From Planctomycetales bacterium (lineage in GTDB: Bacteria; Planctomycetota; Planctomycetia; Isosphaerales; Isosphaeraceae): a DNA stretch of 39,851 bases. Shown here piece by piece: positions 10,053-39,636 of the stretch (position 1 is the first letter of the stretch; every line of letters begins with the position of its first letter). Both the position numbers and the translations under genes were made by a program. The stretch spans positions 1 through 39,851 of the forward strand of contig DAIDKV010000017.1 of NCBI GenBank assembly GCA_027449865.1, in the 5' to 3' direction. The notes beneath the pieces were generated by a model, which did no database searches, was not told the origin of the DNA, and was given only the letters and a program-made list of their open reading frames with translations.

Positions 10053-10490
10053 ATGGCGATCAGTGGAATTCGGGATCTGATCCCGAGCCCGCGCACGTTC
10101 CTGTCGGTCGGGCTATCGAGCCTGCTGGGGGGCGCTGTGGCGATCGGTGTGTCATGGCACATGCGCGGTCCGGAGGGGCCTCCTGGCCCTCCTCGGGATC
10201 CGCGTTTTGTCTCGATCGGGCGAGCGTATCTGCCCGAACTGGGAAAGGCCTACGCCGCAGCCTGGGAGGAGGGGGCGCGTGCCCTCGATTCCGGCCAACC
10301 GGTCTCTGCGGCGATTGCGGCCGTGGGCCGGGCGTGGGACACGAATCGAGCCCGCCTGTTTGATCGGATGGCGACCCCCGAATTTACCGGGATCGTGCCG
10401 GAATCGCGGCGGGACGCCGATGTCACCGCGCAGCAGCGCGGGGCCCTGGCTGCCGCCTGGCGTGGCTTCGCTGCTGGCCTCGACAAGTGA
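10053..10490 (+). CDS. Small single-pass membrane protein at the start of the phage cluster
   Basis: The product has 145 residues with one hydrophobic segment at about 13-32 (FLSVGLSSLLGGAVAIGVSW), a short collagen-like GPEGPPGPP stretch, and then a soluble helical Ala/Arg-rich domain. The ATG at 10053 has GAGGTG eight bases upstream. The in-frame ATG at 9912 is rejected because its extra 47 residues look non-coding. No family is recognised. A membrane protein just before a peptidase and more small membrane proteins would fit a lysis or entry module, but this rests on context only. Confidence 0.65.
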   Translation: MAISGIRDLIPSPRTFLSVGLSSLLGGAVAIGVSWHMRGPEGPPGPPRDPRFVSIGRAYLPELGKAYAAAWEEGARALDSGQPVSAAIAAVGRAWDTNRARLFDRMATPEFTGIVPESRRDADVTAQQRGALAAAWRGFAAGLDK

Positions 10491-10599
10491 CTCCCCCCCT
10501 CCAATGGACTGAGCTCGAGAAGCCGGCCGGCACCCCCGGACGATCCGGCACCGGCCTCACTCCTGCTTCCATTCCCCGATCTCGAGACCCGAGGGATCC

Positions 10600-11499
10600 A
10601 TGAGCGAAGACACATCGCTTCAACATCTATTGGGATGGCGAGGAGTGGATGATGTCCAGCGATCGTTCGCCGGACAGTTTTCCCCTCTTGCAGTCGCCGC
10701 GCCTCGCCTGATGGGCGGCCCGTCAGATTCGCAGCCGATTCTGCTGTACAAGGCCTGGCGCGACGTGCTGGGCAAGGATCCGGAGTACCCGTCGCAGCAG
10801 ATCGGCGACTGTGTCTCGTTTGGGCACGGGCACGGCAACGACTTGCTCCAGTGCGTGGAGATCAGTCTGGGGGAGCCGGCGATCTACCGGGAAACGGACA
10901 CTGAATTCATCTACGCGACGTCGAGGGAGGTTGCGGGCATTCTGGGTCGCCAGGACGGTTCGTACGGCGCCGCTGCCGTCAAGGCCATGATGACGGTCGG
11001 CATGGTCAGCCGAGCGATGCTGGGAAGTGATGGGACATACTCCGGGCAGCGAGCCAAAGCTTGGGGGCTTTCGGGTGCTCCCGAGGCCGTCAAGGCTGAG
11101 GCCGCTCCTTTCAAGCTGGGTTCCGCGGCGCAGGTCACGACATGGGACGAGCTTGTCGGTGCCGTGCGGAACGGCTATCCGGTCACGATCTGCACGGCGC
11201 AAGGTTTCACGCTGGAGCGAGATGGTGATGGTTTCTGCCGGGCCCGAGGTCGCTGGGGCCACTGCATGTTTATCGCTGGCGTCCGATTTGACCGGCCTGG
11301 TGCCTGCATTATCCAGAGCTGGGGCCCCGCCACCCCGACCGGCCCGAGGGGTCTTGACCAGCCGAGTTTCTCGTTCTGGGCGGATCAATCGGTCATTGAG
11401 CGGATACTTGGCGAGGGGGATAGTTGGGCCCTGTCGAAGTCGCCGGCGTTCGAGGAGCGCGAGCTCCCTCCGGCCTGGAAGTACCACGACGCCGCCTAA
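10600..11499 (+). CDS. Papain-like cysteine peptidase, candidate endolysin or virion peptidase
   Basis: The 299-residue product has the order of motifs seen in papain-fold peptidases. A nucleophile motif PSQQIGDCVSFG places Gln66/67 before Cys71. A His motif GRWGHCMFIAGV has His221. IIQSWG at 237-242 occupies the place of the usual NSWG, with Gln239 where Asn is normal. It has no signal peptide. GAGGG lies seven bases before the ATG. In phages, papain-like domains can cut peptide bonds in peptidoglycan stems or process virion proteins. The small membrane proteins that follow suggest lysis. No lysozyme, amidase or other wall hydrolase is seen in the cluster, so this is its best endolysin candidate. 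The Gln-for-Asn change leaves activity open. Confidence 0.65.
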   Translation: MSEDTSLQHLLGWRGVDDVQRSFAGQFSPLAVAAPRLMGGPSDSQPILLYKAWRDVLGKDPEYPSQQIGDCVSFGHGHGNDLLQCVEISLGEPAIYRETDTEFIYATSREVAGILGRQDGSYGAAAVKAMMTVGMVSRAMLGSDGTYSGQRAKAWGLSGAPEAVKAEAAPFKLGSAAQVTTWDELVGAVRNGYPVTICTAQGFTLERDGDGFCRARGRWGHCMFIAGVRFDRPGACIIQSWGPATPTGPRGLDQPSFSFWADQSVIERILGEGDSWALSKSPAFEERELPPAWKYHDAA

Positions 11500-11649
11500 A
11501 TGTCCCGGGTCTTCGGTCCTGAGTCCCTGGCGGTTCCGATTCGCCTCGCGAACTCGGTCGTCGCTGTATGGCGTCGACTCGCCGCGATCTCGAAGAGGAT
11601 CGGCCTGGAATAGCGATCGAATCATAAATACAGGGACAGAGGACACTAT

Positions 11650-12165
11650 ATGAACGGCCCGTTTTTACTCGCTCAAGCTGCCGCGAATGTCGACCCGAAC
11701 GCGATAGGGGTTTCGGTCACAAGCCTGATCGGCTCCCTGGGGGCGGCTGGCGCGGCCGTCGCGGTCACTTATTACTTTCTCGGCTTTCTCCGCACCGAGG
11801 GGGAGAAGCAGGACCGCATCTTCACGGAATTCCGAGACTACCACGCCGAGTCGCAAAAGAAGTTTCAGGACCAGCTCGAGCGGCTCGCCGACCGCCAGGA
11901 GCAATTCCAGCGCGGTGTGCAGGATCAGGTCTCGCGGATGTCCGAGGCCCAAAACACATTGCTCCGCGACTGCATCCTGGCGATGAAGAGCATGGAAAAG
12001 ACCCTGGACAATTCGACGGCCACGGTCCACGGTGTCGAGAAATCCATTGGGGCTCTCCAGGTATCCATGAACGGCATTGACGTTATGATCCGGCGAATGT
12101 TCGAGGCTGGGGTGGATTCGAAAAAGACGTCTCCGTCATCCGTGCTCAGGGAGATATCGTCGTGA
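11650..12165 (+). CDS. Membrane-anchored coiled-coil protein, holin-like or spanin-like
   Basis: The 171-residue product has one hydrophobic segment at about residues 21-46 (ending VAVTYYFLGFL), followed by charged, heptad-like helix from 50 to about 150 with many Gln, Glu and Lys. AGGACA stands before the ATG. The stop overlaps the GTG start of the next gene by four bases, so translation is probably coupled. One membrane pass plus a coiled coil suits a holin-antiholin, spanin or other lysis accessory, but no family is recognised. Confidence 0.65.
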   Translation: MNGPFLLAQAAANVDPNAIGVSVTSLIGSLGAAGAAVAVTYYFLGFLRTEGEKQDRIFTEFRDYHAESQKKFQDQLERLADRQEQFQRGVQDQVSRMSEAQNTLLRDCILAMKSMEKTLDNSTATVHGVEKSIGALQVSMNGIDVMIRRMFEAGVDSKKTSPSSVLREISS

Positions 12166-12464
12166 ATCACACCCATCGAGGATCGCTGCTCTTGATCGTC
12201 GCCGGAGTGCTGTTGCTGCTAGCGGTGGTGGCCTATCTGATCCACGACGCAGAGACACACTCCTTCCACATGGAGGCGTCCGCGGAGCGGCAATCCCTCG
12301 ATGCCCAAACCCGGCAATCGATCGCCGAGATGAAGACGCTGCGGGAAATGAACGATCAGATGCAATTGGAACGGCAGGACCTCCTGGATCGCAACCAGGA
12401 GATTCTCGAGTCGCTCAAACGGTTCGAGGCCCTACTCGGTGACAGACCAATGAGCCGGCCGTGA
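12162..12464 (+). CDS. Small membrane protein with coiled coil
   Basis: The start is GTG at 12162, inside the GTGA overlap with the preceding stop. The 100-residue product has a strong hydrophobic segment at about 9-27 (LLLIVAGVLLLLAVVAYLI) and a Gln/Glu/Met-rich helical tail. Its topology mirrors the gene before it, so the pair may act together in the membrane, for instance as two-component spanin-like or holin-like factors. This is inference from topology and order. Confidence 0.6.
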   Translation: MNHTHRGSLLLIVAGVLLLLAVVAYLIHDAETHSFHMEASAERQSLDAQTRQSIAEMKTLREMNDQMQLERQDLLDRNQEILESLKRFEALLGDRPMSRP

Positions 12465-12513
12465 GGGCGGGCCGGCGCACGCGATTTCCACGAAATTCAA
12501 GTGAGGTACGTCC

Positions 12514-12780
12514 ATGAATCTGACCGCGATTATGCTGTTGATCTTCGGCGAGGTCCGAGCCCTTTCTCCCATTGCCCTGGCCGTTCTTTCGGGGCTGGGA
12601 ATGATTCTGACGAAGAGCCTGGGCTGGGGAATCTCCGAGCTTTTCCAGGCACTCTCGATCGTCTTCAGCGGACTGAGTGCTTTTGTGATTAAAAAGTCAA
12701 TGATCGAACTCTCCGCGGTGACTTCGGCGTTGTCCGCGCCGACGGGCGGCAAGAGTGAGGTCCCTGCGACCGGAAGTTAA
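12514..12780 (+). CDS. Small two-pass membrane protein, holin candidate
   Basis: The 88-residue product has hydrophobic segments at about 4-34 and 44-62, the second ending in KK. The size and two-pass layout are typical of holins, which form the membrane holes that release endolysins. GAGGT stands eight bases before the ATG. It follows two other small membrane proteins and the papain-like peptidase. No specific holin family is recognised. Confidence 0.6.
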   Translation: MNLTAIMLLIFGEVRALSPIALAVLSGLGMILTKSLGWGISELFQALSIVFSGLSAFVIKKSMIELSAVTSALSAPTGGKSEVPATGS

Positions 12781-12786
12781 CGGGCC

Positions 12787-12843
12787 GGGGGGCTCGCCCA
12801 GTTCCCAGCGGCCACCGCCGCGAGATAAGGTGGCGAGCCCCCC
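12787..12843 (+). promoter_or_regulatory. Perfect 12-bp stem with a competing inner stem, upstream of a small membrane gene
   Basis: Bases 12787-12798 (GGGGGGCTCGCC) pair perfectly with 12832-12843. A second stem, 12811-12816 with 12829-12834, shares bases 12832-12834 with the first, so the two cannot form together completely. There is no T-run behind it, so it is not a standard terminator. It ends five bases before the GGAGAG ribosome binding site of the next gene. An mRNA stability, processing or translation-control role is an inference. Confidence 0.5.
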
Positions 12844-12861
12844 ACCTGGAGAGAAGCGACG

Positions 12862-13044
12862 ATGGCGATCCCAGGGGTCACCGTCGGCACCTGGATCGGC
12901 GTGACGAGGGGAGACGGGAAGATGCGACTGCGATACGCCTGGGGCGATCTGCCGTTCCTGTTGCTGGGGGTTGTGCTGCTGATCCCGCTATGTATTCAAC
13001 TGGCTGAGATCGTCATCGACTTCATCACCTCCACTGAGTTCTAA
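12862..13044 (+). CDS. Small membrane protein of 60 residues
   Basis: One hydrophobic segment (about 30-54, LPFLLLGVVLLIPLCIQLAEIVI) fills the second half. GGAGAG precedes the ATG by about nine bases. The stop lies four bases before the portal gene start. No family is recognised. It is the fifth small membrane protein in this stretch and probably belongs with the others. Confidence 0.5.
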   Translation: MAIPGVTVGTWIGVTRGDGKMRLRYAWGDLPFLLLGVVLLIPLCIQLAEIVIDFITSTEF

Positions 13045-13048
13045 TGCC

Positions 13049-14938
13049 ATGACGCCGGACTGGCCCCAACAGACGATGCTTCCTCCGCCCGGAGGCGACG
13101 GCCGTCGCAACGGGCGGCCGGTCGAGCCTGACCTCGACGGCCCCGCGATCGTCCGGCGGCGACACGTAGATTGGGTCGAACACCAGATCCGATGGCGTTG
13201 GCTTCTCGACTCGTTCGAGGGAGGCGATCGCTACCGGAACGCAATCTACGGTCCTGACCGGCGGGGGTTACCGTGCCGGAACCTGTATCGTCACAAACGT
13301 GAGTATCCCGACCCCCAAACTTTCCCCAACGTCTATCAGGGCTTCGCGGGGTTCCTCGGGTCGGTCAACGTCCAGGCCCCGGACGCCTCCTACGGACCGT
13401 ATCCAGGGATGCTCGGAGCCGACCCGGCCGCGACAGCCCAGGACGACGATTACGAGTATCGCCGCAGCCGGACGCCGATCCCCGAGTTTGTCGCCGAGGC
13501 CGCTGGAATTCACCTCGCGAAAGTTTATGACCAGGAAGTGCGTCGCGAGGGGCCCGAAGATTTGATGTCGTGGTGGAACGACGTAGACGGACGTGGCACG
13601 CCGATCGACGACTGGATGCGCGAAACGGCCGCGCCTCTTTTAATGGTTCTCGGCTGTCTTGACGTCTGCCTGGACCACCCCAAGGCTCCTCCCGGCGAGA
13701 CAATCGAGACTCGTGCCGACGAATTACGGCTGGGCCTGGATCGCTGTGTCGCCAGCTACATTCTGCCGCAAAACATGGTCTGGTGGCGGCTGGATCCTGC
13801 CGGACGGTATGTCGAGTGCCTGGTCCGCGAGTACGTCGATCCTTCGGAGCGAATGGACCGGGATGAACGAGGCAACGCGATCGACCCGGACGCTCCAGGA
13901 GAGGCGGGTGAGGCCTGGCGGCGTGACTACGTCCGTTGGCGGCTCTGGCGGCGCGACGAGTCGATTCTGTTCTCGAACGCGGGTGAAGTGCTCGAGCGGA
14001 TGTCGCATACGTTTGGCTGCATTCCCATCATCCGCCTGGTCGATTTCCCCAAGCACCGGACGCCGCACATTGGCAAGAGTCGATACGAAGGCATCGCGGA
14101 ATACCAGCGCGAGTACTACAATCGCGACAGCGAGTTGATCCTCAGCGACACGCTTCAGGCCCACCCGTTCCTCTCGGGGGCAGAGGACTTCTGCAAGTCC
14201 GACAACACGCTCTCGGTCGGGCCTGGTTACATCCTCCCGATGAAGAAGAACGCCGAGGGGAACGGCTATCAGGGGTGGGAATTTGTTAGCCCGCCCAAGG
14301 ATCCGGCCGAGTCCATCCGGAAGAACAAACAGGACATCATCGATTTGAAGGATCGACTGGCGTGCCTGTCGAAGCCAGCCGGGGTCGTCTCCGGGAGAAC
14401 CACCTCGCAATCAGGAATCTCCAAGCAGCTCGATGCGACGACCGGTCACAAGCTGCTGGTCTCGATCGCCAAGTCGCTGGCGAAGGCTGAGCGGCAGCTC
14501 GCTGAATATGCGGCCGTTGTCCTGCGCAACCGACCGCTGGGCCGAGACGAGCGAGCCCAGATCAAGGTGATCTACCCGGCGCGGTTCGACCTATTCGCGG
14601 CCTCGGAGATGACGGAGAACCTGCTCCAGCTCCAGAAGGCCCTCGCCGCGACTGGGGAGGCTCCTGAGACCGAACGGGAGATGCTCCAGACGATCATCCG
14701 CCAGACGCTCCTGGGTCTGAGCGACGCGGATTACCGTCGCCTCGACGAGGAGATTACACGGATGGTCGCGAGCAAATCACGGTTAAAGGAGAAGCTTGTC
14801 CCGATCGGTCCAGAGGGAGTTACCTCACACATCGAGGCAATGGAGGGCCCGGGCTCGGCTGAGCAGGCTGCGCAGGCCGACCCGACCGGGGTATCAGACG
14901 CCACGATGATCAGCAATATGATTCTAAGTGTTTCCTAG
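13049..14938 (+). CDS. Phage portal protein
   Basis: The portal forms the dodecameric ring at the capsid vertex through which DNA enters and leaves. The 629-residue product has the character of the SPP1/DUF4055 kind of portal. It has an N-terminal part with a Y(R)NAIYG and RHKREYPDP pattern, a central region rich in Trp and Tyr with repeated WRL and YV.W strands, the conserved-looking sequence GKSRYEGIAEYQREYYN, and a long helical C-terminal part containing QSGISKQLDATTGHKLL. Length and position before scaffold and major capsid genes agree. A large terminase gene normally precedes a portal gene; here the preceding genes are small membrane proteins. No strong ribosome binding site is visible, so translation may be coupled to the gene four bases upstream. 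Confidence 0.7.
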   Translation: MTPDWPQQTMLPPPGGDGRRNGRPVEPDLDGPAIVRRRHVDWVEHQIRWRWLLDSFEGGDRYRNAIYGPDRRGLPCRNLYRHKREYPDPQTFPNVYQGFAGFLGSVNVQAPDASYGPYPGMLGADPAATAQDDDYEYRRSRTPIPEFVAEAAGIHLAKVYDQEVRREGPEDLMSWWNDVDGRGTPIDDWMRETAAPLLMVLGCLDVCLDHPKAPPGETIETRADELRLGLDRCVASYILPQNMVWWRLDPAGRYVECLVREYVDPSERMDRDERGNAIDPDAPGEAGEAWRRDYVRWRLWRRDESILFSNAGEVLERMSHTFGCIPIIRLVDFPKHRTPHIGKSRYEGIAEYQREYYNRDSELILSDTLQAHPFLSGAEDFCKSDNTLSVGPGYILPMKKNAEGNGYQGWEFVSPPKDPAESIRKNKQDIIDLKDRLACLSKPAGVVSGRTTSQSGISKQLDATTGHKLLVSIAKSLAKAERQLAEYAAVVLRNRPLGRDERAQIKVIYPARFDLFAASEMTENLLQLQKALAATGEAPETEREMLQTIIRQTLLGLSDADYRRLDEEITRMVASKSRLKEKLVPIGPEGVTSHIEAMEGPGSAEQAAQADPTGVSDATMISNMILSVS

Positions 14939-14956
14939 TGACAATCGGTCATGATT

Positions 14957-15218: not shown

Positions 15219-15225
15219 ACCGACG

Positions 15226-15645
15226 ATGATCCCAATCCTGGCCATCGTGCTGGTTGCGCCGTCCTGGCCGTCGAACGGCGAAACCATCCGCGACGACCTC
15301 GTGCTGGCGCGAGCCGTTGAGGAATTCGTGATTGACACCCGGCCCGATCGAGGGCCTCCCGAACCGTATCGTGGACTGATCGATCGACTGGGTGCGCCAT
15401 TGTGGGGTGATCGCGAGGAAGCGTCCGAGGCGATGCGAGAAGCGTCGGCCGGGGACCCTCGATGGCTGTTCTGGGGCCGACGCCATCCCGATCCCGAGAT
15501 CCGACTCCGGTCAAACGCGATTCTTAGGCGTCTCTATCCATGCCAGGCCTGCAAGGGCGACGGTCGGTCGAGAAACTGGGATTCCTGGGCGTGCTGGGAC
15601 TGCCAGGGGACCGCGACGGCCTGGCCCTGGTCGATCTGGGACTGA
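15226..15645 (+). CDS. Small protein with a CxxC...CxxC zinc-ribbon-like C-terminus
   Basis: The 139-residue product begins with a short hydrophobic stretch (MIPILAIVLVAPSW) that may be a weak signal or membrane anchor. Its last 35 residues hold C106-x2-C109-x-G-x-G and C123-x2-C126-x-G, like one repeat of the DnaJ-type zinc ribbon. The middle is acidic and Arg-rich. It starts seven bases after the preceding stop and lies within the head operon. Function is unknown; a small zinc-binding accessory protein is the most that can be said. Confidence 0.6.
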   Translation: MIPILAIVLVAPSWPSNGETIRDDLVLARAVEEFVIDTRPDRGPPEPYRGLIDRLGAPLWGDREEASEAMREASAGDPRWLFWGRRHPDPEIRLRSNAILRRLYPCQACKGDGRSRNWDSWACWDCQGTATAWPWSIWD

Positions 15646-15681: not shown

Positions 15682-16380
15682 ATGTCCGTCGAGAACCAGG
15701 GGGCCGCGACGACAACCGCCCCGTCTCCGACCACTCCACAGCAGACCGTGTCGATCCCACTGGAGCAACTCCAGGCCTTCACGAATATTCAGGCCCGCCT
15801 GGCCGAGATGGAGGCATCGCAGCACGCTCAACGTGAGGCGATCCAGCAGGAGCAGGCTCGGATCATGGCTCAGAAGGGCGATCTGGAAAACGCCCTCAAA
15901 CTGGCCCGCGAACAGGCCGAGCAGACGCTGAACTCCGAGCGACAGAAGTTCTCGCAGATCGAGGAGCGAGCCAAGCGGTTTGCCCTGGAGAACGAGATTT
16001 CGCGGGCCTTGACTCCGCACAACCTGGTCCAGGGCGGGGTTGAGCAGCTCACGCATCTCTGGCGGAGCCAGTTCGTGATTGATGCCCAAGGTGATTCGTT
16101 CTCGGTCAGGACACCGACGTTTCAGTCAGTAGGCGAGTTCGTCTCACAGCAGCTCACCCGCCCGGAATACGCCCATTTCCTCCGGGCGTCATCGCAGGGG
16201 GGGACGGCCTCGGGCCAACCGGTCCAGGCGACCCAGACCCCCCCCGCGAGTCCAGCCCCGACGGCCCAGCCCCGGAATATGGGCGAGGCCGTGATCTTGC
16301 ACATGCAGGGGCTCCAGAAGGCCCAGGGCGACTCCCGGACCAACCTCAGCCTGCCGATGGGCCTGCGAGTCGCCCGCTAA
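15682..16380 (+). CDS. Scaffold-like protein of the head operon
   Basis: The 232-residue product sits directly before the major capsid gene, the normal place for a capsid scaffolding protein. It has a Thr/Pro-rich N-terminus, a long charged Gln/Glu/Ala-rich coiled coil at about 27-110 (including QREAIQQEQARIMAQKG), a folded middle, a Pro/Thr/Ala linker near 180-200 and a short basic C-terminal segment. Scaffolds commonly have this helical form with a basic C-terminal capsid-binding tip. The call rests on position and composition. Confidence 0.6.
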   Translation: MSVENQGAATTTAPSPTTPQQTVSIPLEQLQAFTNIQARLAEMEASQHAQREAIQQEQARIMAQKGDLENALKLAREQAEQTLNSERQKFSQIEERAKRFALENEISRALTPHNLVQGGVEQLTHLWRSQFVIDAQGDSFSVRTPTFQSVGEFVSQQLTRPEYAHFLRASSQGGTASGQPVQATQTPPASPAPTAQPRNMGEAVILHMQGLQKAQGDSRTNLSLPMGLRVAR

Positions 16381-16497: not shown

Positions 16498-17697
16498 ATG
16501 GCTGACTTCCTCCAGGGCTTTCTCGGGACGCAGCAGGCCGGCATTGAGGCTCGCAACGACGTCACAGTGGCGATCCGTAATTGGTTCGCCAACCGCAACC
16601 CGCTGGTGACCCGGCTTCCCTATGTGCCGGTCGAACGGGTTGATTTCCAAATGTACACTCATAAGTATAGAGCGCGTTCGACGATGCTCGGCGCGGCGGT
16701 CTCGTCGGCCACTCAGACGAGTCTGACACTTACCGACGCCACGTTCCTAATGAACCACGACGTGCTGGAAATCGTAGACTCGGCAACGGGTAACATCGAG
16801 CGAATTCAGGTCAGTGGTGACCCCAGTAGCCCGAATACGATCAATGTGACCCGGGGGCTCTGGTCGCAGACTGGCGGGGTCGTCAGCACCACGCCACTGT
16901 CGAGCATGGCGCCAAACTCGATCGTAAATCTGATCGGCAATAGCCGAAGCGGTGCTGAGGTCAATCAGACGGGCCTGACGACCATCGGCGTCCCGCGCAC
17001 GCAGTATTGCCAGACCTTCCAGTTCCCGGTGCAAATCTCGGGGTCGGCCCAGAGTACTCGAGCTCAGGTATTGCCTGGCGGAATTCAAACGCCTTTCGAT
17101 TTCAACATGACGATCCAGCTTCAGAACATGGTCGACGACATCGAGACATCGTGCTACTACGGGATCGCGCAGGCGCCGAATGATACGTCAGGCGTTACGG
17201 CGAAGATGAATGGCCTCCGATCCATTCTTCAGACCAACAACATCTCGAACTACACGGGGTCCACGCCGGTCAACTCGGCGGCCTATGGGGCGACCGACCT
17301 GGTGCGCGACACGCTCCAGGCGGCTCGCACGGGCGGCGGCGAGCCGGATCTGCTGGTGGTCTCGACGAATTTCATGAGCGGGTTCGCGACCTGGGGTCAG
17401 GCTATCCAGCGAGTCCCGGCTGGTGAGACCGCCTTCGGCACGCCGATCCACGTGCTGGAGGCACCGTTCCTCCACGGCGTCACAATCGTGGAGGCGCCGC
17501 TGCTGCGGCCGTTCACGGCCATTGCGCTGACCAGTTCCGAGGTTTACATCCGCAACAAGCGGAACCCTTACTGGCAGCTTCGAGGAGCCCGTGGCGACAT
17601 GGTGGAGGGTGACTGGATCGCCGAAATGGCGATCGAGGTCGTCAACGAGAGCCACCACGCCTGGGTCGAGGGGATCACAGCGTTTTCAGCGAACTAA
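16498..17697 (+). CDS. Major capsid protein, SU10-like
   Basis: The 399-residue product matches the pattern of SU10-type (DUF5309) major capsid proteins of the HK97 fold. It has an N-terminal IRNWFANRNPLVTRLP stretch, a Ser/Thr-rich beta region at 75-165 and a central helix-rich part (FNMTIQLQNMVDDIETSCYYG). The C-terminal half holds LLVVSTNFMSGF, EAPFLHGVTIVEAP, RPFTAIALTSSEVY, RGARGDMVEGDWIAEMAIE and VNESHHAWVEGITAF. It would build the icosahedral shell. Position after the scaffold-like gene and before connector genes agrees. The leader carries the structured repeat listed separately. The AAAGG before the ATG is weak, so the leader may matter for the high expression expected. Confidence 0.8.
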   Translation: MADFLQGFLGTQQAGIEARNDVTVAIRNWFANRNPLVTRLPYVPVERVDFQMYTHKYRARSTMLGAAVSSATQTSLTLTDATFLMNHDVLEIVDSATGNIERIQVSGDPSSPNTINVTRGLWSQTGGVVSTTPLSSMAPNSIVNLIGNSRSGAEVNQTGLTTIGVPRTQYCQTFQFPVQISGSAQSTRAQVLPGGIQTPFDFNMTIQLQNMVDDIETSCYYGIAQAPNDTSGVTAKMNGLRSILQTNNISNYTGSTPVNSAAYGATDLVRDTLQAARTGGGEPDLLVVSTNFMSGFATWGQAIQRVPAGETAFGTPIHVLEAPFLHGVTIVEAPLLRPFTAIALTSSEVYIRNKRNPYWQLRGARGDMVEGDWIAEMAIEVVNESHHAWVEGITAFSAN

Positions 17698-17783
17698 GGC
17701 CCGACTGGAGCTTGGCCGGGGTTGGTGTCCGAGCGTGCCCTCGGGCCGTCGATCGCCGATCCCCGGCGGAGTTCCAGCGAGAC

Positions 17784-18239
17784 ATGACTACAGACCACTC
17801 GAGCGGAGCGGAGCGAAGCGACATGTGGCGATTCCGCGGCACCCCGTATTACCTGGACGCCCAGGGCGTGCGCCTCGGGCTGTCCAAGGCTCTGACCGAC
17901 CGGGCCCGGCACAATCCGGAGGTCTACCGGGTGTCCGTGCTACTGGGCCAGCTTTGCGAGCGATACCACCGCGCTCCGAAAGAACGAGAGCGGGCGTTGA
18001 TTCCACCGGTCGAGTTGGCTCAGGTCCGGGGGACACTCAGCCAGTGTGAGCAGGAGTTGGAGAAGCTCCACGCACTGGCGGCAGCCTCACAGGCCATGGT
18101 CGATGAGGCGTATCGGGCCTTCGGCCTGGATGGCCCAGATCGTCATTTTCGAGTCCGTTGCGACTTCGACGATCTGCCGGCCGCGGCAGAATCTAACCAG
18201 ATCAAGGTCACCCGCGACAGAAGCGCGAGGGCGAAATAA
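17784..18239 (+). CDS. Hypothetical phage protein downstream of the capsid gene
   Basis: The 151-residue product from ATG 17784 has a charged central helix (about 85-115, with QCEQELEKLHALAAASQAMVD) and no recognised family. A second in-frame ATG at 17823 has GGAG nine bases upstream and would begin MWRFRGTPYY, so the true start may be there. The frame also extends upstream to 17712, but that part looks non-coding. Its place between the capsid gene and a virion-type protein suggests a head or connector role. Confidence 0.6.
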   Translation: MTTDHSSGAERSDMWRFRGTPYYLDAQGVRLGLSKALTDRARHNPEVYRVSVLLGQLCERYHRAPKERERALIPPVELAQVRGTLSQCEQELEKLHALAAASQAMVDEAYRAFGLDGPDRHFRVRCDFDDLPAAAESNQIKVTRDRSARAK

Positions 18240-31335: not shown

Positions 31336-31411
31336 ACCTTCGCCGGTCGACCGCATGCGGATCGGTCCTAACGGCGACCGGCTATCCGTCAACGGGACCA
31401 CAGGACGACCC

Positions 31412-31726: not shown

Positions 31727-32126
31727 GAGAACACGGCGCAAGTCCGGATTCGATGAAAGAGACATCGCCTGGATCGTACTGGCCGATGGGGGCCGGTGGG
31801 CCTTCCCCAAGCCCTGGCTAGAAGTACGTGCCTCGTTCCATAGTGGACGGGCCGCTTCAGCTCGCTCGATTCTCACTTATGGTCGTGAATTGGACGAACT
31901 GGTCCAAGCCATCACCGAATGCCGAGACGATGCCGCGTTACTTATCGCCTCGGCCTCTCTAGGTTCCTACCTGCTTGGCCATCAATACGAGCTCTCGGAT
32001 GACGATCTGGACCGGCTCTTTGCCGTCCGCGTCGGCGACCTTGACTCGTGGGAATGGGCGCGATCCGTCATTGAGGTGGCGACCGGTGCGAGCGGCTGCC
32101 GGTCTTTTCGCGATGGCAGCGGCTGA
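31716..32126 (+). CDS. Tail assembly chaperone-like protein
   Basis: The 136-residue product lies between tube-like and tape-measure-like genes, where tail assembly chaperones (lambda G-like) are found. After a mixed N-terminal part (WIVLADGGRWAFPKPWLEV) it is acidic and helical: ELDELVQAITECRDD, LLGHQYELSDDDLDRLF and SWEWARSVIEVATG. The short frame that follows lies in the -1 phase and overlaps this gene's end, as in the G-GT arrangement. Function rests on position and helical, acidic character. Confidence 0.5.
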   Translation: MIDERTRRKSGFDERDIAWIVLADGGRWAFPKPWLEVRASFHSGRAASARSILTYGRELDELVQAITECRDDAALLIASASLGSYLLGHQYELSDDDLDRLFAVRVGDLDSWEWARSVIEVATGASGCRSFRDGSG

Positions 32127-32290: not shown

Positions 32291-33475
32291 ATGGAAAACC
32301 ACGAATGGATCGCCCCAACCCGGTTCGAATACCGGGACGCAGTAGCCGGGCTCCGATCGATCGAGGAAGACGTTCCGTCCGTCGACGGCCTCGGGCAGAC
32401 CACGAATACATCGTCGACCCGATTCCGCCAGGCCCATGAATCCATCGCCTCCGCATCGCGGCAGCGCGGCCATCTTCAGTCGACTCTCCGAGAGAGTGGA
32501 CCAGTGGCGGGAAACCTGTTCGCTGGATCGGAGATCAATGGACTCTCAAAATTACGAACAAGCACTTTCGAATCTGGCTATACGCTCGAGTCACCGAAGG
32601 AAGGACCGTCCTCAACCATTCCGAGCTCGGTCAATGAGCGGATCGGACAGGCAAATGCAGGCCAGAGCGATCCCAACCGGGATAGGCGCTCGGCGAGCCC
32701 AGTTTCGATGGATGTACGTAATGCCCTGACCGGGAAGCCCAACTTCAATCATCTCGGAGCGGCCGACTCCCGACCGGACGGTCTTCCTTGGGCGCCCTCA
32801 ATGGATGTCTCATCGGATCGAATCCATGGAAAACCAGAGAATCCGGACAACGGCCCCGCACCATCAAGCGACCCCGTGATTCGTGCTGGACGCGTCGTCC
32901 AGATCGATCCCCAGGATACATCCCTCCTCGGCAGCCAAGCGGCTCTCACACAAATTCACGTGGGGACGGCCTCGGTGATCGCGACCGAAGCAGCCGATTC
33001 CGGGATGACCAGGGTTGAGCGGTCTGTACCGATGGACCAACGGGCTCTCGCTGATTCTCAGGCAGAAACGTCTGACCGCCTCATTCGAGACTCAAGGCCG
33101 AAAAGTCACCCCGACCGGGCCTTCATCTTAACCAACGCGCAAGCCTCAAGGGCGGCAGGCGGGATGGGCTTCCCTCAAGCACCAATCACCGGGCTCGTTC
33201 CTCCAGGCATCGCCCCGTATACGATCACTCGGAGCGCAACGAGCCCCTCCTCGCTTGCTCCGTCGGCCGATGGCCAGTGGACAGGCCCCCTCAGAAATAC
33301 CGATTTCAGCCCCATCGGAGGTCGGGGTTCAGTGAGCGAGTTGGGAGCGGCAAACGGCACCATCGAGCACCTGCTACGCGAGCAGAACGAGCTGATCCGC
33401 CAGGACCTCCAGCGCAATTCGAGCCGGCCAATCGCGGCCCCGCCGCCGTTCCGCAATAGCGGAATCCGCATGTAA
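32291..33475 (+). CDS. Short tape-measure candidate, low-complexity
   Basis: The 394-residue product occupies the slot of the tape measure protein, after chaperone-like genes. It is unusual for one: mostly Ser/Pro/Arg/Asp-rich and probably disordered, without hydrophobic segments. Only the C-terminal 50 residues form a clear amphipathic helix (NGTIEHLLREQNELIRQDL) followed by a Pro-rich tail. At the usual 1.5 angstroms per residue it would set a tail of about 59 nm. The ribosome binding site is weak, so translation may be coupled to the frame ending three bases before. It could instead be another tail protein. Confidence 0.45.
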   Translation: MENHEWIAPTRFEYRDAVAGLRSIEEDVPSVDGLGQTTNTSSTRFRQAHESIASASRQRGHLQSTLRESGPVAGNLFAGSEINGLSKLRTSTFESGYTLESPKEGPSSTIPSSVNERIGQANAGQSDPNRDRRSASPVSMDVRNALTGKPNFNHLGAADSRPDGLPWAPSMDVSSDRIHGKPENPDNGPAPSSDPVIRAGRVVQIDPQDTSLLGSQAALTQIHVGTASVIATEAADSGMTRVERSVPMDQRALADSQAETSDRLIRDSRPKSHPDRAFILTNAQASRAAGGMGFPQAPITGLVPPGIAPYTITRSATSPSSLAPSADGQWTGPLRNTDFSPIGGRGSVSELGAANGTIEHLLREQNELIRQDLQRNSSRPIAAPPPFRNSGIRM

Positions 33476-33566: not shown

Positions 33567-33941
33567 ATGAATCCCAGTTTCGGCAGTGCCTTCATCTTTG
33601 GTACCGCCTGCCATGTGGTCCACGTGCCCCATCCTGTCGCCCTCCAGAAGGATGGCTTCTTCGGCGTGACGGGGATGACGGCGCTTTTTGGCGGCGGACG
33701 AGGTCGGACTTTCGAGATCGCCGGCGTTCTGGTCGGCTCCGACCTACCTGGGGTCATAGCGGCCGAAGGATCGCTGCTCTCCTACGCCGACGGGATCGCT
33801 CGAACCCTCGTCGACACCCAGGGTCGATCCTGGCCAAACGTGATCTTCGAGGGCGAATACCAGGCTTCCTCCGAGGGGCCTAAAAGCACCGATTTCGGCT
33901 GGTGCTTGCCGTATCACTGTATCCTCCGTGGTCTGACCTGA
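33567..33941 (+). CDS. Small tail or baseplate protein
   Basis: The 124-residue product is beta-rich with many Gly and Phe: SFGSAFIFGTACHVVHVPHP, then GFFGVTGMTALFGGGRGRTF, then SLLSYADGIARTLVDTQG and a C-terminal strand. It resembles small distal-tail or baseplate proteins built on one beta-domain, and it lies just after the tape-measure candidate, where such proteins are found. No strong ribosome binding site is visible. Bases 33476-33566 before it hold no gene. Confidence 0.5.
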   Translation: MNPSFGSAFIFGTACHVVHVPHPVALQKDGFFGVTGMTALFGGGRGRTFEIAGVLVGSDLPGVIAAEGSLLSYADGIARTLVDTQGRSWPNVIFEGEYQASSEGPKSTDFGWCLPYHCILRGLT

Positions 33942-34000
33942 GGCCACTCGATCTCATTCCTCGGGGCGAGTCCGCCAGTGTCAGGGAGCTGTCGAAATCC

Positions 34001-34720
34001 ATGGCCTTCTCGCAAACCACGATCCTGAGTGTCTTACCCCCGCAGTACCGGGGAAACCAGGTCTATCTCTCGTGGTCGTCATCGAGCCCGTCGGGAACCT
34101 GGTATCAGGTCTACGTCAACCAGCGGCTCGCATGGTCGGGCACACGGTGCTCGGCCTGGATCGCGATTCCCGCGGGACCGGTGCGGATTGACATCGGTGC
34201 CGTCGGTCCGGGTGAGCAGGACATCGACTTCGCCGCCTCACTGCCCTCAGGGCCAGGCCGACGGGTGCAACTCTCCTGGCAGTCGGGCACTTACAAGGGG
34301 AGCGATCTGGCCGGATTCCGAATCTACGGTCCTGACTCGCCGGGCGGTGCAATCAACTACACCCAGATCCTAGCAGCAATCACGGCTTATCCCACAGGTA
34401 TCACAACCAGCGGATTCGGCCTCGGTGAATTCGGCTCCGGAGGATTCGGGGAGGCCGCCAGCTTCTATTCGTGGACCTCAGGACCCCTCGCCGCAGGGAC
34501 CTGGACCTTCGCCGTCGTACCCTATGACGTTGCTGGCAACGAAGGAGCAGCGCAGACGACGACCACCATGGTCAACGGCCCCCCCCGTGCCCCGGCGACG
34601 TTCGAGGGCACTTCGACTCGTCTTAATTATGCCATGATCGGCTTCGGGCAGACCGGATTCGGGATCGGCGGATTTGGCCTGCCCGCAGCCACGCTCTCGT
34701 GGAATCCCAGCCCCACTTGA
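34001..34720 (+). CDS. Fn3-like tail protein with Gly-Phe-rich segments
   Basis: From ATG 34001 the product has 239 residues. The frame is open back to 33902, but that part overlaps the preceding gene's end and is rejected. Two beta-sandwich units are visible: QVYLSWSSSSPSGTWYQVYV and, later, RRVQLSWQSGTYKGSDLAGF with GTWTFAVVPYDVAGNEG. Two GFG repeats (GFGLGEFGSGGFGE and GFGQTGFGIGGFGL) flank the second unit. The second unit resembles the frameshifted protein at 21561-22182. A tail-surface or tip-fibre role fits. Confidence 0.6.
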   Translation: MAFSQTTILSVLPPQYRGNQVYLSWSSSSPSGTWYQVYVNQRLAWSGTRCSAWIAIPAGPVRIDIGAVGPGEQDIDFAASLPSGPGRRVQLSWQSGTYKGSDLAGFRIYGPDSPGGAINYTQILAAITAYPTGITTSGFGLGEFGSGGFGEAASFYSWTSGPLAAGTWTFAVVPYDVAGNEGAAQTTTTMVNGPPRAPATFEGTSTRLNYAMIGFGQTGFGIGGFGLPAATLSWNPSPT

Positions 34721-34793: not shown

Positions 34794-35414
34794 ATGAGCA
34801 CCACCTACACCCCCAACGCCAAGCTCGCAATGCCGGCGATCGGCGATACTGGTTGGGCCGTCCCGATCAACGCCAACAGTGCCGCCCTCGACATGCTCGC
34901 GCCGGTCGGAAACCTGGCTGTAACCACGTTCGAGATCCCCAGCGCTTCCCTGAATGTCGCCATTTCACCCGGCTCTTACATCAAGCAGGACGGCAGCATC
35001 GGAACCTTCCCGGGCGCTACTCCGCAGCCAGTCACCGCATCGACGACTCAGGTTCTCTATCTCGACCTGACGAATGCCGGTGCCCTCGTCGTCGCCGCAG
35101 CCTATCCGCCTACCTCCCACGTTCGACTCGCCACTGTCATCGCTGGCGTGTCCTCCATCTCATCAATCGTCGACAATCGCCAGTGCTTCCACGTCGTCGG
35201 ATCGTGGGCCGACGGCGTCAACATTTCGCTGGGGAGCGGCACTGGTACACAGATCGGAACCGCGCCGACCCAGAAGCTCGGCTTTTTCGGCAAGGCTCCC
35301 ACCACTCAGCCCGCAATGGGCGCCGCGACCGCCGGAGCCAGCTATACCAACAACGAGCAGGCGATGCTCCAGGCTGTATACAGCGCTGTCCGTGCTCTGG
35401 GACTGGGGAGCTGA
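34794..35414 (+). CDS. Phage tail fibre-type protein
   Basis: The 206-residue product has the conserved look of a tail-fibre base protein. It starts YTPNAKLAMPAIGDTGWAVP and INANSAALDMLAPVG. An internal TFEIPSASLNVAISPGSYI and a VRLATVIAG strand follow, then a C-terminal GTAPTQKLGFFGKAPTTQP that repeats in related fibres as an attachment segment for trimer tips. It probably anchors or forms a short fibre at the tail tip. It ends two bases before the next ATG, so the two are co-translated. Confidence 0.65.
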   Translation: MSTTYTPNAKLAMPAIGDTGWAVPINANSAALDMLAPVGNLAVTTFEIPSASLNVAISPGSYIKQDGSIGTFPGATPQPVTASTTQVLYLDLTNAGALVVAAAYPPTSHVRLATVIAGVSSISSIVDNRQCFHVVGSWADGVNISLGSGTGTQIGTAPTQKLGFFGKAPTTQPAMGAATAGASYTNNEQAMLQAVYSAVRALGLGS

Positions 35415-35415
35415 G

Positions 35416-37647
35416 ATGCCCGGCTCATTCGACCTCGACAATACGAACGCACCCCTCTACGGGGATGCACTGGCCGCCGGCGTCTACCTTTACGACCCGG
35501 CCGCGGACAACCCCTTCTCATTATTTCCAAACGTCCGCTGCCTCCGGATCGATTTCCGAGAGGGCCCCGAACCTCCTGTGGCTCGATTCGAATACGTCCT
35601 CTCCGACATCGTCGCGATCAATCTCGGCTGGCCGGCACAATTTGAGGAACTCTGGCCGATCGACGCCCAGGGGCCTTACGTGGTCAATCCCGACGATCGA
35701 CTCGTCGTGATGGCGACCAATCCCGATGGTTCCCCGTTAATCCTCTTCGACGGCTTCGCCCAGGTCCCGCAGGTCGATGTGACACCGAGCAACCAGAGGG
35801 TCACGTTCACGGCCGTGGGAGTGGCGATTCGTGAGTGGGACAACCCGGTCAGCGGGCGCGTCCAGCGGAACTCTGACCCAACCGGACTCGTCGACACATC
35901 AGGTGGGTCGGACATTTCTATCGACCTACCCTGCCGCTTCAATCCATCCGAGACCGACGTCGGGGGTCGTGGCGGTTACCTTCCCAACCGAACGCCAGAG
36001 GGCAAGGATACCGTCAAGTCAGTCGGCGGCCTCTCGCTAAGTTACCCGGTGTTCATCGACCCCGGTATCGAGCGATCCCCAGATCCTCGAGCCTACTGGA
36101 GTATCGGCGACGCCATCGGATACCTCCTCGCTCAGTACAACGGAACCCAACTCTATACCGGCTACCCAAACCTGGATTCTCTGGACACCCTCTTGCAGGT
36201 CGAATCGCCCGCGCAGGGACAGGACACCTTCACACCCGCCGACGCACAGACCGCCCCACTGACGATCCGCGATTATGATGCCTCGAACCGTCCTTATCCC
36301 GAGGTCGTCGCCGAGTTGCTCTCCTATGCCGGATTCGTGATGCGATGGGACACAGAGGCTAACCAGAACGGTCTCCCTTTCACCCAACTCCGGATCTACC
36401 GACGCGACGGCGCCGCGACCTCGCCCATCAAATCAATCTACCTCGATGCCGCCGGCACCCCGACTCTCGACCCGAGTCGGAACAATATCGCAAGACTCCA
36501 CCTGGCGCGAGACAGCAATAGCATCGTCAATGCCTGGCAGGTCGAGACCCAGCAGCGGCTCGTCGAGGTCAGCATCGTGCTGGCGCCGCTGTACCAGCCC
36601 TCCATTGGCGACGCCCAATCCGTCATACGGAAGCAGTATTTCCGATCTTCATGGAATGCCTCCACGCCAGCCGCAACCCGTCGCCAGTATCGATGGTACG
36701 GGGCCGACGAATGCGGTGATGGGCACTGGACCTCGTCGGGATCCTGGAGCACGTCCCCCTGCGATCTCTCAACGATTTTTCCGCCCGACGACGACGGGAC
36801 GCCGTCCTACACTGTCCGATATCGCCCCGGCTCGCAGACGCTGATTTCGACGGACTCCGACGGCAACTTCCTTCGAGCGGATCTCGCCATCAGCTTTGAC
36901 TACAGCGGACCGACCGCCGCGCCCTGGGATGGCTCAGGAACCTGGCAGACAATCAAGGGAGGCTGGCGGCTTCTCCCAAATCGGCTTGGCATCGAGGTGA
37001 CTGCGGAGGACGTCGAGCAGTGGGCCACGGGACGTGGTGCATTCGCCGCTGGCGGCTCTGGCCCTGCCGCAGCCATGGTGCCTGGTGGCGACATCCGCGG
37101 GGTCACTTGGTGGGCCTCGCCACCCCAGGGTGCGCCGACAAACGGCAATCCCCCAGTCCTCCGCCTCACTACCGTTATCCGCGATGACCTGCGAATGCCG
37201 ATCTCGGCCGGCAAGCGCATCGCCAGCCCGACGCGATACGCCCGATGGCGCAGCATCGATGCCCGGGACCATTTCCAGTACGCTGGCATCGATCCCAGTT
37301 CCATGAATTACAAGACTCAGGGGGGCAACGGCACCGATCCCGTCGTGGCACGCAACGACACCGACGCGGCCATGGCCCACGCCTACCAGCTCCGAGGCGC
37401 CCACGAATTCCCTCCGCTCGCGGGTTCTGCCACGGTTCCTTATATTACAACATATTACAATGTAGGCGATCGTATCGACCAGATTGCCGGCCGCGATGTC
37501 TCGCTCACGACGAACATCGGCCAGGATCAGGGCGAGGCGCCGACTTATCCCTGGGTCGTGGGAGTCTCCTGGAGCTTCGAGGGTGATCGACAGAGCACCA
37601 CACTCCAGCTTTCGGACCGTCGCGCTGAGCATGACCTCAGGACGTAG
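35416..37647 (+). CDS. Large tail tip / baseplate hub-like protein
   Basis: From ATG 35416 (GGGGAG five bases upstream) the product has 743 residues. The frame extends to 35074, but there it overlaps the fibre gene in another phase and is rejected. The N-terminal part has short beta-strands with LFDGFAQVPQVDVTPSNQRV, the kind of strand pattern found in hub proteins with an N-terminal beta-domain (gpD-like). The middle has PYPEVVAELLSYAGFVMRWD and a charged beta region; the C-terminal part has YYNVGDRIDQIAGRDVSL and a strand near GVSWSFEGD. This agrees with a baseplate hub or distal tail protein. No enzymatic motif is seen. Confidence 0.6.
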   Translation: MPGSFDLDNTNAPLYGDALAAGVYLYDPAADNPFSLFPNVRCLRIDFREGPEPPVARFEYVLSDIVAINLGWPAQFEELWPIDAQGPYVVNPDDRLVVMATNPDGSPLILFDGFAQVPQVDVTPSNQRVTFTAVGVAIREWDNPVSGRVQRNSDPTGLVDTSGGSDISIDLPCRFNPSETDVGGRGGYLPNRTPEGKDTVKSVGGLSLSYPVFIDPGIERSPDPRAYWSIGDAIGYLLAQYNGTQLYTGYPNLDSLDTLLQVESPAQGQDTFTPADAQTAPLTIRDYDASNRPYPEVVAELLSYAGFVMRWDTEANQNGLPFTQLRIYRRDGAATSPIKSIYLDAAGTPTLDPSRNNIARLHLARDSNSIVNAWQVETQQRLVEVSIVLAPLYQPSIGDAQSVIRKQYFRSSWNASTPAATRRQYRWYGADECGDGHWTSSGSWSTSPCDLSTIFPPDDDGTPSYTVRYRPGSQTLISTDSDGNFLRADLAISFDYSGPTAAPWDGSGTWQTIKGGWRLLPNRLGIEVTAEDVEQWATGRGAFAAGGSGPAAAMVPGGDIRGVTWWASPPQGAPTNGNPPVLRLTTVIRDDLRMPISAGKRIASPTRYARWRSIDARDHFQYAGIDPSSMNYKTQGGNGTDPVVARNDTDAAMAHAYQLRGAHEFPPLAGSATVPYITTYYNVGDRIDQIAGRDVSLTTNIGQDQGEAPTYPWVVGVSWSFEGDRQSTTLQLSDRRAEHDLRT

Positions 37648-37677
37648 TCGTCCGAGGGCGAAGGGAGCCAATTCATC

Positions 37678-38007
37678 GTGAATGACCTACGTATTCTCCG
37701 CGATCGCCAATGGGCCGGGCGCGATTACCTGGATAACGAAATGGGAGGCGAAGGAGTCACCGGGTCGGCTGCGATGCTGGCACAGACGACGACCATGAAA
37801 ACCTATCCGACCTCGGCGTCGGCCTTCTATGCCATCGTTCCCTGCGATGTCGACGGATCCGAGACCGAGGGTGCCGCGGCGGCTTATGTCCCCCGTACCG
37901 GCTCCGTCTCCTTCGCGATCAACCTGGGCACACAGATACCGCCTGTCGGAACCACAGTCGTCTGCCATGGTGTCGGCGGACGCTGGTGTTTCCGCTATGA
38001 CGGCTAG
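37678..38007 (+). CDS. Small tip protein, paralogue of the next gene's N-terminal domain
   Basis: The start is GTG at 37678 with AGGGAG ten bases upstream. The 109-residue product has a central beta-domain: FYAIVPCDVDGSETEG, then PPVGTTVVCHGVGGRWCFRY. The same pattern occurs in the next gene (YFAHPVDLDGNEIEG, then PPETGDLLVATSVGGRWVAE). The G-x-x-V/L...VGGRW signature suggests an OB-like barrel as found in tail-tip proteins. It is an accessory tip component by position. Confidence 0.6.
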   Translation: MNDLRILRDRQWAGRDYLDNEMGGEGVTGSAAMLAQTTTMKTYPTSASAFYAIVPCDVDGSETEGAAAAYVPRTGSVSFAINLGTQIPPVGTTVVCHGVGGRWCFRYDG

Positions 38008-38071
38008 TCGCTCGATACGCCGAGCCGAAACCATCCGATGCTCCACGTCGACGAAAGCGAGCAGAAGTCCT

Positions 38072-39199
38072 GTGCTCGATCCCAGCCTGACCCGACCGCT
38101 GGACCACCCTCAACACGACGGCGGGCAGGCGAGAGCGGCCCGCATCCTCCGTAATCGCCAGGCGGAGCAGGTAGCCGGCGTCAGCCGATCATCGAACATT
38201 TCATCGCCCCAGGCCACCCGCCGACTGGTCTCGATCTATAACGGCGGTCAGATGCCGAACCAGCCTAACTACGTCTACTTCGCGCATCCCGTCGACCTCG
38301 ACGGGAATGAAATCGAGGGAGAGGTAGCTTCACCAAACCCGGACGTTTCGGCGACAATCCCCGTAGTGGTCCTTTGGCATCCCCCAGAGACCGGTGATTT
38401 GCTCGTCGCCACATCGGTCGGCGGCCGATGGGTCGCCGAGCGAGGCGGGATGGCCAGCACGAGGCTCTGCGTCACGGCGTGCGGAAACCTCCCCGTCCCA
38501 GGAGCCACGATCACACTCCTCTCCGGAACCCGGAACATCGCGACCAGCATGACGGGCCCGGATGGCTGCTGTCAATTCTTGCTTGCCGGCACGTACACGG
38601 TTCAGATTGCGATCGGTGGTACGATCGTCTACGAGGCTCTACAGACCCTATCCTCAGGCGGAACGACGACCATCTCGGCAGAAAGTAGCGGCCTGGTCTG
38701 CTGCGGCGGATATGCCATCCCCCAGGTCCTGACCCTGACCGATGCCGAGGGTACGATCGATCTCGTGTACGACTCAACCGACGGCATCTACGTCCCAACC
38801 TGGTTCGGAGGCCATGCGGTAACCCGACTTTCCGCGACAGTCACGACCCCGAATAACATCTGTTCCGCGCAGCCGGCCTCTCAGGGACCGGTTCGAGTGT
38901 GCTATCAAATGACCTGCAACGCCAGCCAGAACCCGACGTTCAAGATCACACGCTCCTGGTCCTGGGTCTACCAGCAGGCTAACACACCAATTTGGTTCCA
39001 GGACCCAACCGGCTTCACGGCGGGCCGATACTGCATCACGGCACCACCACCCCAGTGTGGAAACCCTCTCACCGACACGGCTACTTTAGGAACAAACCCC
39101 TTGTCCGGTGGCCCGTTCGTGCTCTCGGGTAGCCCCGTGCCAACCGCTAGCAATGGCACCAGCGATCCCATCGGGGGATCGATCGCCATCTCCGCATAG
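38072..39199 (+). CDS. Tip or fibre protein: OB-like domain plus carboxypeptidase-regulatory-like domain
   Basis: The GTG at 38072 gives 375 residues starting LDPSLTRPLD. An in-frame ATG at 37997 has no ribosome binding site. The first 130 residues contain the OB-like domain paralogous to the preceding gene. From about 130 a Cys-containing beta-sandwich begins: CVTACGNLPVPGATITLLSG, then TSMTGPDGCCQFLLAGTYTV. This is the pattern of a carboxypeptidase-regulatory/Cna-B-like domain. The rest is beta-rich with many Thr, Pro and paired Cys, and ends in a Gly/Ser tail. It is probably a tip fibre exposed to the host surface. Confidence 0.6.
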   Translation: MLDPSLTRPLDHPQHDGGQARAARILRNRQAEQVAGVSRSSNISSPQATRRLVSIYNGGQMPNQPNYVYFAHPVDLDGNEIEGEVASPNPDVSATIPVVVLWHPPETGDLLVATSVGGRWVAERGGMASTRLCVTACGNLPVPGATITLLSGTRNIATSMTGPDGCCQFLLAGTYTVQIAIGGTIVYEALQTLSSGGTTTISAESSGLVCCGGYAIPQVLTLTDAEGTIDLVYDSTDGIYVPTWFGGHAVTRLSATVTTPNNICSAQPASQGPVRVCYQMTCNASQNPTFKITRSWSWVYQQANTPIWFQDPTGFTAGRYCITAPPPQCGNPLTDTATLGTNPLSGGPFVLSGSPVPTASNGTSDPIGGSIAISA

Positions 39200-39264
39200 T
39201 AAACATTTGATCGCACTTTTATTTCATCAAACAGCCGATCCTAAATCTTCGAGAGCCGAATTCA

Positions 39265-39636
39265 GTGGATCGCCCCTGTGAGCCATGTCCCTGTCCCGGG
39301 CTCTGCGTGCGATGGTCCATTTTTTGCGAATGGGCCGCCGAGACACCCACCGACCCGATCAAGATCCAGCACATCCGTGCCCGATCGGGATACCGTAATG
39401 ATCGGAACGCCGCCTTGATCTCCGATGGCCCGGGAAAAACGACCGGATTGGGCTCTATGAGGAATCCCGATCTGGTGAATGCGATCCAACGAATTATGTC
39501 CATCCGTTCCTGCGCATTCCGATCGACGGGGCCGGGTTGCAATTGTTCAGGTGGACGTTGCAGCCTGCGTTGCGGCGCAGCCGTCTCGCATCTCGATTGC
39601 CTGGAGTGCCTCCAACGCTATCCCGATCCCATCTAA
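39265..39636 (+). CDS. Cys-rich small phage protein with two putative zinc clusters
   Basis: The start is GTG at 39265 with GAGAG nine bases upstream. The 123-residue product has Cys at 5, 8, 10, 14 and 21 in the N-terminal part and at 83, 92, 94, 99, 103, 112 and 115 in the C-terminal part, with a linker of about 60 residues. The spacing suggests two zinc or disulfide knots. It lies last in the cluster, after the tip proteins. Function is unknown. Confidence 0.6.
   Translation: MDRPCEPCPCPGLCVRWSIFCEWAAETPTDPIKIQHIRARSGYRNDRNAALISDGPGKTTGLGSMRNPDLVNAIQRIMSIRSCAFRSTGPGCNCSGGRCSLRCGAAVSHLDCLECLQRYPDPI

Follow-up and report, generated by a model that had tools for sequence, protein, structure and literature searches.

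A putative gene transfer agent-like particle cluster of Isosphaeraceae, found without its terminase in one planctomycete lineage

Gene content of the cluster

The stretch of DNA analysed here, hereafter the window, is the entire contig C17 (39,851 bp) of an 8.48-Mb Isosphaeraceae genome, 99.4 % complete and assembled in 278 contigs, and its positions 9155-39636 form a conserved block holding an intact phage head-and-tail gene set with portal, scaffold, SU10-type capsid protein, tail tube, tail terminator, hub and giant fibre. This cluster is probably a domesticated particle of the family, resembling gene transfer agents (GTAs). An earlier note on the same DNA had described a structural phage cluster without terminase, integrase, replication or repressor genes, and both parts of that description held, as capsid, portal, scaffold and tail genes were all found and profile searches of the window detected none of the four other kinds. 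The left boundary, placed by the note at 10053, has to be moved to about 9155. Relatives were drawn from metagenomic contigs and from a comparison set of 45 Isosphaeraceae genomes representing 21 genera, with one genome per species, and the gene set is colinear in those of their regions that were read.

All genes of the window described below lie on the plus strand. The block opens with a cluster-linked 199-aa protein (9155-9754; no Pfam match), with homologous proteins in the corresponding position in G019, G014, G001, G002, G027, G028 and G031, and with a conserved 192-aa open reading frame (ORF; 9912-10490) placed likewise in G002, G019, G021, G028 and G031. The next gene encodes a papain-like cysteine protease (10600-11499), whose AlphaFold model resembles xylellain (best match, E 8e-7) and cathepsins, and in which Cys71 and His221 are invariant across 12 sequences. 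Three membrane proteins follow, namely a conserved one with an N-terminal hydrophobic segment recognised by sequence reading, presumably belonging to a lysis module (11650-12165), a spanin-like one (12162-12464; weak match to Rz-like spanin phrog_89, E 0.0017), and a conserved one that is holin-like by size and place (12514-12780). Beyond a scar (12781-12921) lies a conserved membrane peptide of 40 codons (12922-13044, in a longer frame open from 12862; 70-82 % identity in L208, L209 and L232), and then the portal (13049-14938; phrog_145, E 3.2e-32), a conserved 139-aa protein (15226-15645), the head scaffold (15682-16380; phrog_206, E 4.6e-6) and the major capsid protein (16498-17697; Pfam SU10_MCP, PF17236, E 1.6e-33). 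No match to the capsid or portal was found among 50,697 phage records (INPHARED, tblastn E 1e-5).

Downstream of the capsid gene are a conserved protein (17712-18239), for which the internal start at 17823 agrees with the homologues, a possible head closure protein (18243-19010; weak match to phrog_8040, E 0.0078), a short protein conserved in relatives (19195-19542), a candidate head-tail connector, so named from its place, present in nearly all relatives at 35-75 % identity (19610-20302), and a protein conserved in G021, G014 and L232 (20339-20836). Two further proteins conserved in relatives (21187-22182, in the fibre region, and 22352-22957) precede a fibre or adhesin of 2454 aa with stretches matching phrog_460 and phrog_19630 (23011-30375). 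A 94-bp tRNA-Gly called by ARAGORN on the minus strand opposite a cluster ORF (21751-21844) is probably false, since it has no Rfam match. The tail genes comprise a conserved tail terminator (30452-30907; weak match to phrog_123, E 0.0099), a tail tube protein (30919-31335) whose model of moderate quality (predicted local distance difference test, pLDDT, 68) matches the tail tube of siphophage R4C in Foldseek (8gtb, E 1.8e-3, probability 1.00), two conserved tail assembly chaperone candidates recognised by place and overlapping each other (31355-31726 and 31665-32126), and a 394-aa protein in the slot of the tape measure, to which that role is assigned from its position (32291-33475). The protein in this slot has at most 205-405 aa in relatives, while elements linked to an integrase have 693 and 723 aa there. 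Three conserved tail proteins (33567-33941, 33902-34720 and 34794-35414), a tail hub or tip of 743 aa (35416-37647; 34-75 % identity in relatives, start set from homologues), a conserved tail-end protein with a weak CarboxypepD_reg match (37829-39199) and a last conserved ORF (39265-39636; 42 % in G019, 29 % in G021) complete the block.

The terminase slot and separate terminase loci

In most relatives with a readable stretch, a large terminase (TerL) of about 520 aa lies directly upstream of the portal, overlapped by a small upstream ORF resembling a small terminase (TerS), and the pair sits exactly between the third membrane gene and the conserved 40-codon ORF. This TerL is full length or nearly so in 31 of the 45 family genomes, with the G019 copy identified as a large terminase by PHROGs (phrog_2, E 1.2e-13). 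In the window both genes are gone, and the third membrane gene, ending at 12780, is followed by the 141-bp scar, which was recognised by BLASTN against G019 and contains a 12-bp inverted repeat (12787-12798/12832-12843), and then by the 40-codon ORF and the portal. The nearest match to the relatives' TerL in the window (E 1.3) is a chance one, and no TerL of the in-cluster type was found anywhere in its genome. The idea that an insertion sequence (IS) or a repeat had produced the scar was rejected, as the sequence of the scar occurs only once in the genome.

L232, the closest relative from metagenomes (capsid 90 %), still possesses TerS, TerL and the small ORF. In L236, also metagenomic, both terminase genes are absent as in the window, while metagenomic L234 retains no more of the terminase than a remnant next to a transposase-like insert, its other genes being intact, and G014 carries a different TerL, of the PF03237 type, in the same slot. 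Judging from these sequences, the missing terminase is a loss in the window's lineage and not the normal state of the cluster. The earlier note had seen the place of the terminase taken by a peptidase and small membrane proteins and had treated the absence as a ground for domestication; the peptidase has indeed a papain-like fold, but the terminase pair of relatives lies between the membrane genes and the portal, and its absence cannot serve as a sign of domestication because relatives carry it in that slot. TerS candidates of one group of clusters, those at site A described below, gave no helix-turn-helix (HTH) match, and a TerS without a detectable DNA-binding domain is common to known GTAs (PMC11841831).

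Furthermore, the window's genome contains three separate TerS-TerL loci, on contigs C252, C230 and C91, and in two of them a recombinase lies beside the terminase. The pair on C230 (G000:C230:12137-13568, L037) has no mobility gene and adjoins uvrA, an arrangement found also in another species of the genus (TerL 96 %, dN/dS 0.07), whereas the TerS of the C252 pair (G000:C252:3423-5235, L036) carries an HTH. The separate TerLs are under strong purifying selection, with dN/dS of about 0.07. The third locus (G000:C91:6160-18072, L038) is a tail-only phage-like block with tyrosine integrase, TerS and TerL, containing homologues of the cluster tail tube (81 %) and hub (55 %) and no portal or capsid match; a TerL close to its own is present in G019:C31 (95 %). 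Separate pairs of the PF03237 type were observed among host genes also in G017:C291, G019:C388, G019:C172, G014:C51, G014:C493, G022:C161 and G008:C1:735800-737720, some adjoining a serine recombinase or tyrosine integrase.

Distribution, chromosomal sites and selection

The capsid gene is present in 32 of the 45 family genomes and in 16 of the 21 genera, mostly in single copy, with second copies in some genomes, so that the possibility of a cluster restricted to one strain, raised in the earlier note, is refuted. Named carriers include Tautonia sociabilis, Aquisphaera insulae and Paludisphaera soli. The tree of the in-cluster TerL follows that of the hosts, as all seven tested genera are monophyletic in it, just as in the rpoB tree, and TerL and rpoB distances are correlated (r = 0.61; reached in 0 of 2000 permutations). 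Flanking genes are common to several genera, at two chromosomal sites. At site A (g1, g2, g13 and g17) the right flank varies in composition and includes genes for a pentapeptide protein, a sigma-70 factor and an M32 carboxypeptidase, among others, while site B (g3, g6 and g20) is characterised by phosphofructokinase and a histidine-methyltransferase-type gene to the left. The pair of pentapeptide-repeat gene and sigma-70 factor was observed in the window's genome (L292:793-2969, on G000:C42) and in G001, G002, G027, G028, G031 and G032. It stands immediately to the right in several genera, and the sigma-70 factor is a candidate for a regulator dedicated to the cluster.

The ends of contig C17 (1-141 and 39711-39851) carry the same 141-bp repeat in opposite orientations, with 98.6 % identity, and the presumed IS at the right border is therefore an assembly break. 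On contig C42 of the same genome lie the pentapeptide-repeat gene, the sigma-70 factor, the M32 carboxypeptidase and two host genes, arranged as they are to the right of site-A clusters in relatives. This contig probably follows the right end of C17, a join suggested by this gene order for contigs that are not physically connected. It contains no terminase or integrase, and the combination of terminase, integrase and att sites beyond the right border, which would have refuted the note, is thus not seen there. The GC content of the cluster is 62.0 % versus 63.3 % in the flank. To its left are three host genes, namely rsmH (2101-3141; PF01795, E 7.9e-97), a LysM-like gene (3129-6257), both in the same position in G001 and G002, and an esterase-like gene (6443-8815; PF01738), present left of the cluster also in G019 (72 %). 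Ancient neighbourhood of rsmH was rejected; the window, G001 and G002 are the sole cases in which it adjoins the cluster (in G011 it lies 20 kb downstream), and the rsmH-LysM pair is located elsewhere, without cluster genes, in seven cluster-free genomes.

Every cluster gene is under purifying selection. Their dN/dS values range from 0.06 to 0.34 between the window and L232 and from 0.06 to 0.52 between the window and G019, thus staying below one as the earlier note had anticipated for a domesticated element, and those of the in-cluster TerL from 0.10 to 0.20. Relaxed selection after terminase loss was considered and rejected. The portal seemed accelerated against L232 (64 versus 21), but rpoB is accelerated in the window lineage too (37 versus 10 and 28 versus 18), while unique changes in cluster genes are balanced against G019 (290 versus 268) and no such effect is seen in L236, which also lacks the terminase.

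Variants and distant relatives of the cluster were also observed. In the IMG/VR viral contigs L248-L252, L254 and L256 the gene order is rearranged relative to the window, with the portal placed after the capsid gene. Distant capsid homologues occur in other planctomycete families (f7, f27, f73 and f78), mostly in one copy per genome, for example at G171:C1:3140355-3143667, where a portal-like and a scaffold-like ORF precede the capsid, and at G139:C1 near 3.22 Mb. These might represent another host-fixed phage remnant.

Interpretation and comparison with known systems

Kogay et al. (2022; PMC9662315) characterise GTAs by particle proteins derived from tailed phages, a genome fully endogenised and often divided among several loci, mostly vertical inheritance with host co-diversification, mostly random host DNA in the particles, a head that cannot hold the whole genome of the element, and delivery of the packaged DNA to other cells. 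The tailed-phage origin is evident in the SU10_MCP capsid, the phrog_145 portal, the phrog_206 scaffold and the phrog_2 TerL of relatives. Endogenisation is reflected in the chromosomal location of a cluster of about 30 kb with conserved flanks and no tyrosine integrase nearby, and vertical inheritance in the agreement of the TerL tree with rpoB and in the shared sites, the capsid tree being its weak point. As these three are the ones of the six that sequence can test, we call the element GTA-like and not a GTA. In our judgement, with a probability of roughly two in three, the cluster is a domesticated, vertically inherited tailed-phage particle of Isosphaeraceae, most likely working as a gene transfer agent. 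The proposal of the earlier note is retained on the grounds of wide occurrence mostly in single copy, host congruence, shared sites, purifying selection and distance from any tyrosine integrase, without its argument from the terminase.

By analogy with known GTAs, and given the gene set, the host would express the head and tail genes, a terminase indifferent to sequence would pack pieces of host DNA into the head, and the particles could be released by the membrane proteins, perhaps together with the papain-like protease. The short-tailed particle would then attach via the giant fibre and deliver its DNA to kin. In the window lineage the in-cluster TerS-TerL pair was deleted from a cluster otherwise kept intact, and this strain could either produce empty heads or package with one of the separate chromosomal TerS-TerL pairs, of which we consider the latter, a terminase acting in trans, more likely. 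A broader version, in which the HTH-less in-cluster terminase was repeatedly deleted or replaced in the window's clade and separate pairs with a DNA-binding domain, some of them recombinase-linked, took over packaging, is a tentative idea with the odds clearly against it. If true, this uncoupling of the packaging motor would place a host-made capsid under the control of other loci choosing which DNA is shipped.

Several observations weigh against the GTA-like reading or parts of it. The window is unable to package DNA by itself, as it has no terminase. At least seven fairly complete genomes (G003, G008, G009, G010, G012, G037 and G038) do not contain the capsid gene, and the capsid tree agrees weakly with rpoB (r = 0.18), with five of seven genera monophyletic and g1 and g17 split, the latter because a second copy of G029 was used. 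The HTH-less TerS is not general to the clusters, since a small HTH gene stands before TerL at site B. Finally, packaging in trans is weakened by G019, which has both the in-cluster TerL and separate TerL genes.

Alternatively, the clusters could be ordinary prophages of one family whose integration system has escaped recognition, or a recurrently decaying prophage, re-entering the same hosts and sites again and again. Some of them could indeed be phage, because a divergent relative, G030:C114, looks from its genes like a real prophage, with a tyrosine-recombinase-like gene upstream, an HTH-bearing TerS and a 693-aa protein in the tape-measure slot; second copies occur in some genomes and IMG/VR lists the clusters as viral. 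However, 11 genomes have no PF00589 tyrosine integrase on the contig of the cluster or up to 180 kb away, and the window contains none, in a search that did not systematically cover serine recombinases around every cluster. The flanks shared by several genera, the congruence of TerL with rpoB, the purifying selection on every gene and the capsid and portal unmatched among phage records also speak against repeated infection, and an own terminase, typical of a temperate prophage, is missing in the window and present in most relatives. We regard a prophage family of this kind as unlikely. Somewhat harder to accept is a domesticated particle whose task is not DNA transfer, for example a head-and-tail particle that acts like a bacteriocin or delivers cargo, for which the terminase would be dispensable and therefore lost in the window and relatives. 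It would account for the terminase being absent in the window and L236 and wrecked by insertion in L234 with other genes intact, and for the rest of the window cluster evolving no faster than expected, but in most members portal, scaffold, TerS and TerL are all retained and under purifying selection. In headless bacteriocins the capsid and portal have normally disappeared, and capsid, portal and scaffold, which a tailocin would not have, are all intact here. A helper-satellite system, with the cluster providing capsids to small chromosomal elements equipped with their own TerS and TerL, seems very improbable. The three separate loci, two with an adjoining recombinase, and the purifying selection on their TerLs would suit it, yet G019 combines both kinds of TerL, and the C230 pair has no mobility gene.

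Few GTA-like elements are known outside Alphaproteobacteria (PMC12946183). No report of a GTA-like element in Planctomycetota was found in the open-access PubMed Central literature, within which, as far as searched, the GTA-like element of Isosphaeraceae is new to the phylum. The carriers are soil and freshwater planctomycetes, and gene exchange through particles is directly testable in them because the family-wide, host-congruent cluster occurs in cultured genera (Tautonia, Aquisphaera and Paludisphaera). Repeated terminase loss from otherwise intact clusters also offers a natural test of whether the particles need their own packaging motor.

Known systems share different parts of this picture. 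PBSX of Bacillus subtilis is a bacteriocin-like particle. Like the Isosphaeraceae cluster it is a host-fixed phage-like particle, and it packages host DNA (PMC12946183), but its genes and host phylum are different. SU10-type phages have the capsid family PF17236 in common with the cluster, and differ in that no INPHARED record matches its capsid or portal. The prophage G030:C114 has its genes in the same order, with homology in the portal, the connector, the tail genes, the C-terminus of TerL and the capsid (31-33 % to the window), and is set apart by its integrase, HTH-bearing TerS and longer tape-measure-slot protein. In the Rhodobacter capsulatus GTA (RcGTA, Rhodogtaviriformidae) the terminase stays in the main cluster, unlike in the window. 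Its head-tail cluster, in which TerL precedes portal and capsid, likewise co-diversifies with its hosts, and the TerS of GTAs without a detectable DNA-binding domain (PMC11841831) recalls the site-A candidates, whereas the SU10-type capsid of Isosphaeraceae and their phylum are different. The GTA of Brachyspira hyodysenteriae (BhGTA, formerly VSH-1; Brachygtaviriformidae) differs in that its clusters lack synteny, while Isosphaeraceae relatives retain both synteny and TerL in the cluster, and in that its particles and transfer are proven, the Isosphaeraceae cluster being known from genes alone. However, it is also a host-inherited siphovirus-like head-tail cluster, and its sole terL lies outside the structural cluster (PMC9662315), an arrangement that may also hold for the window's genome.

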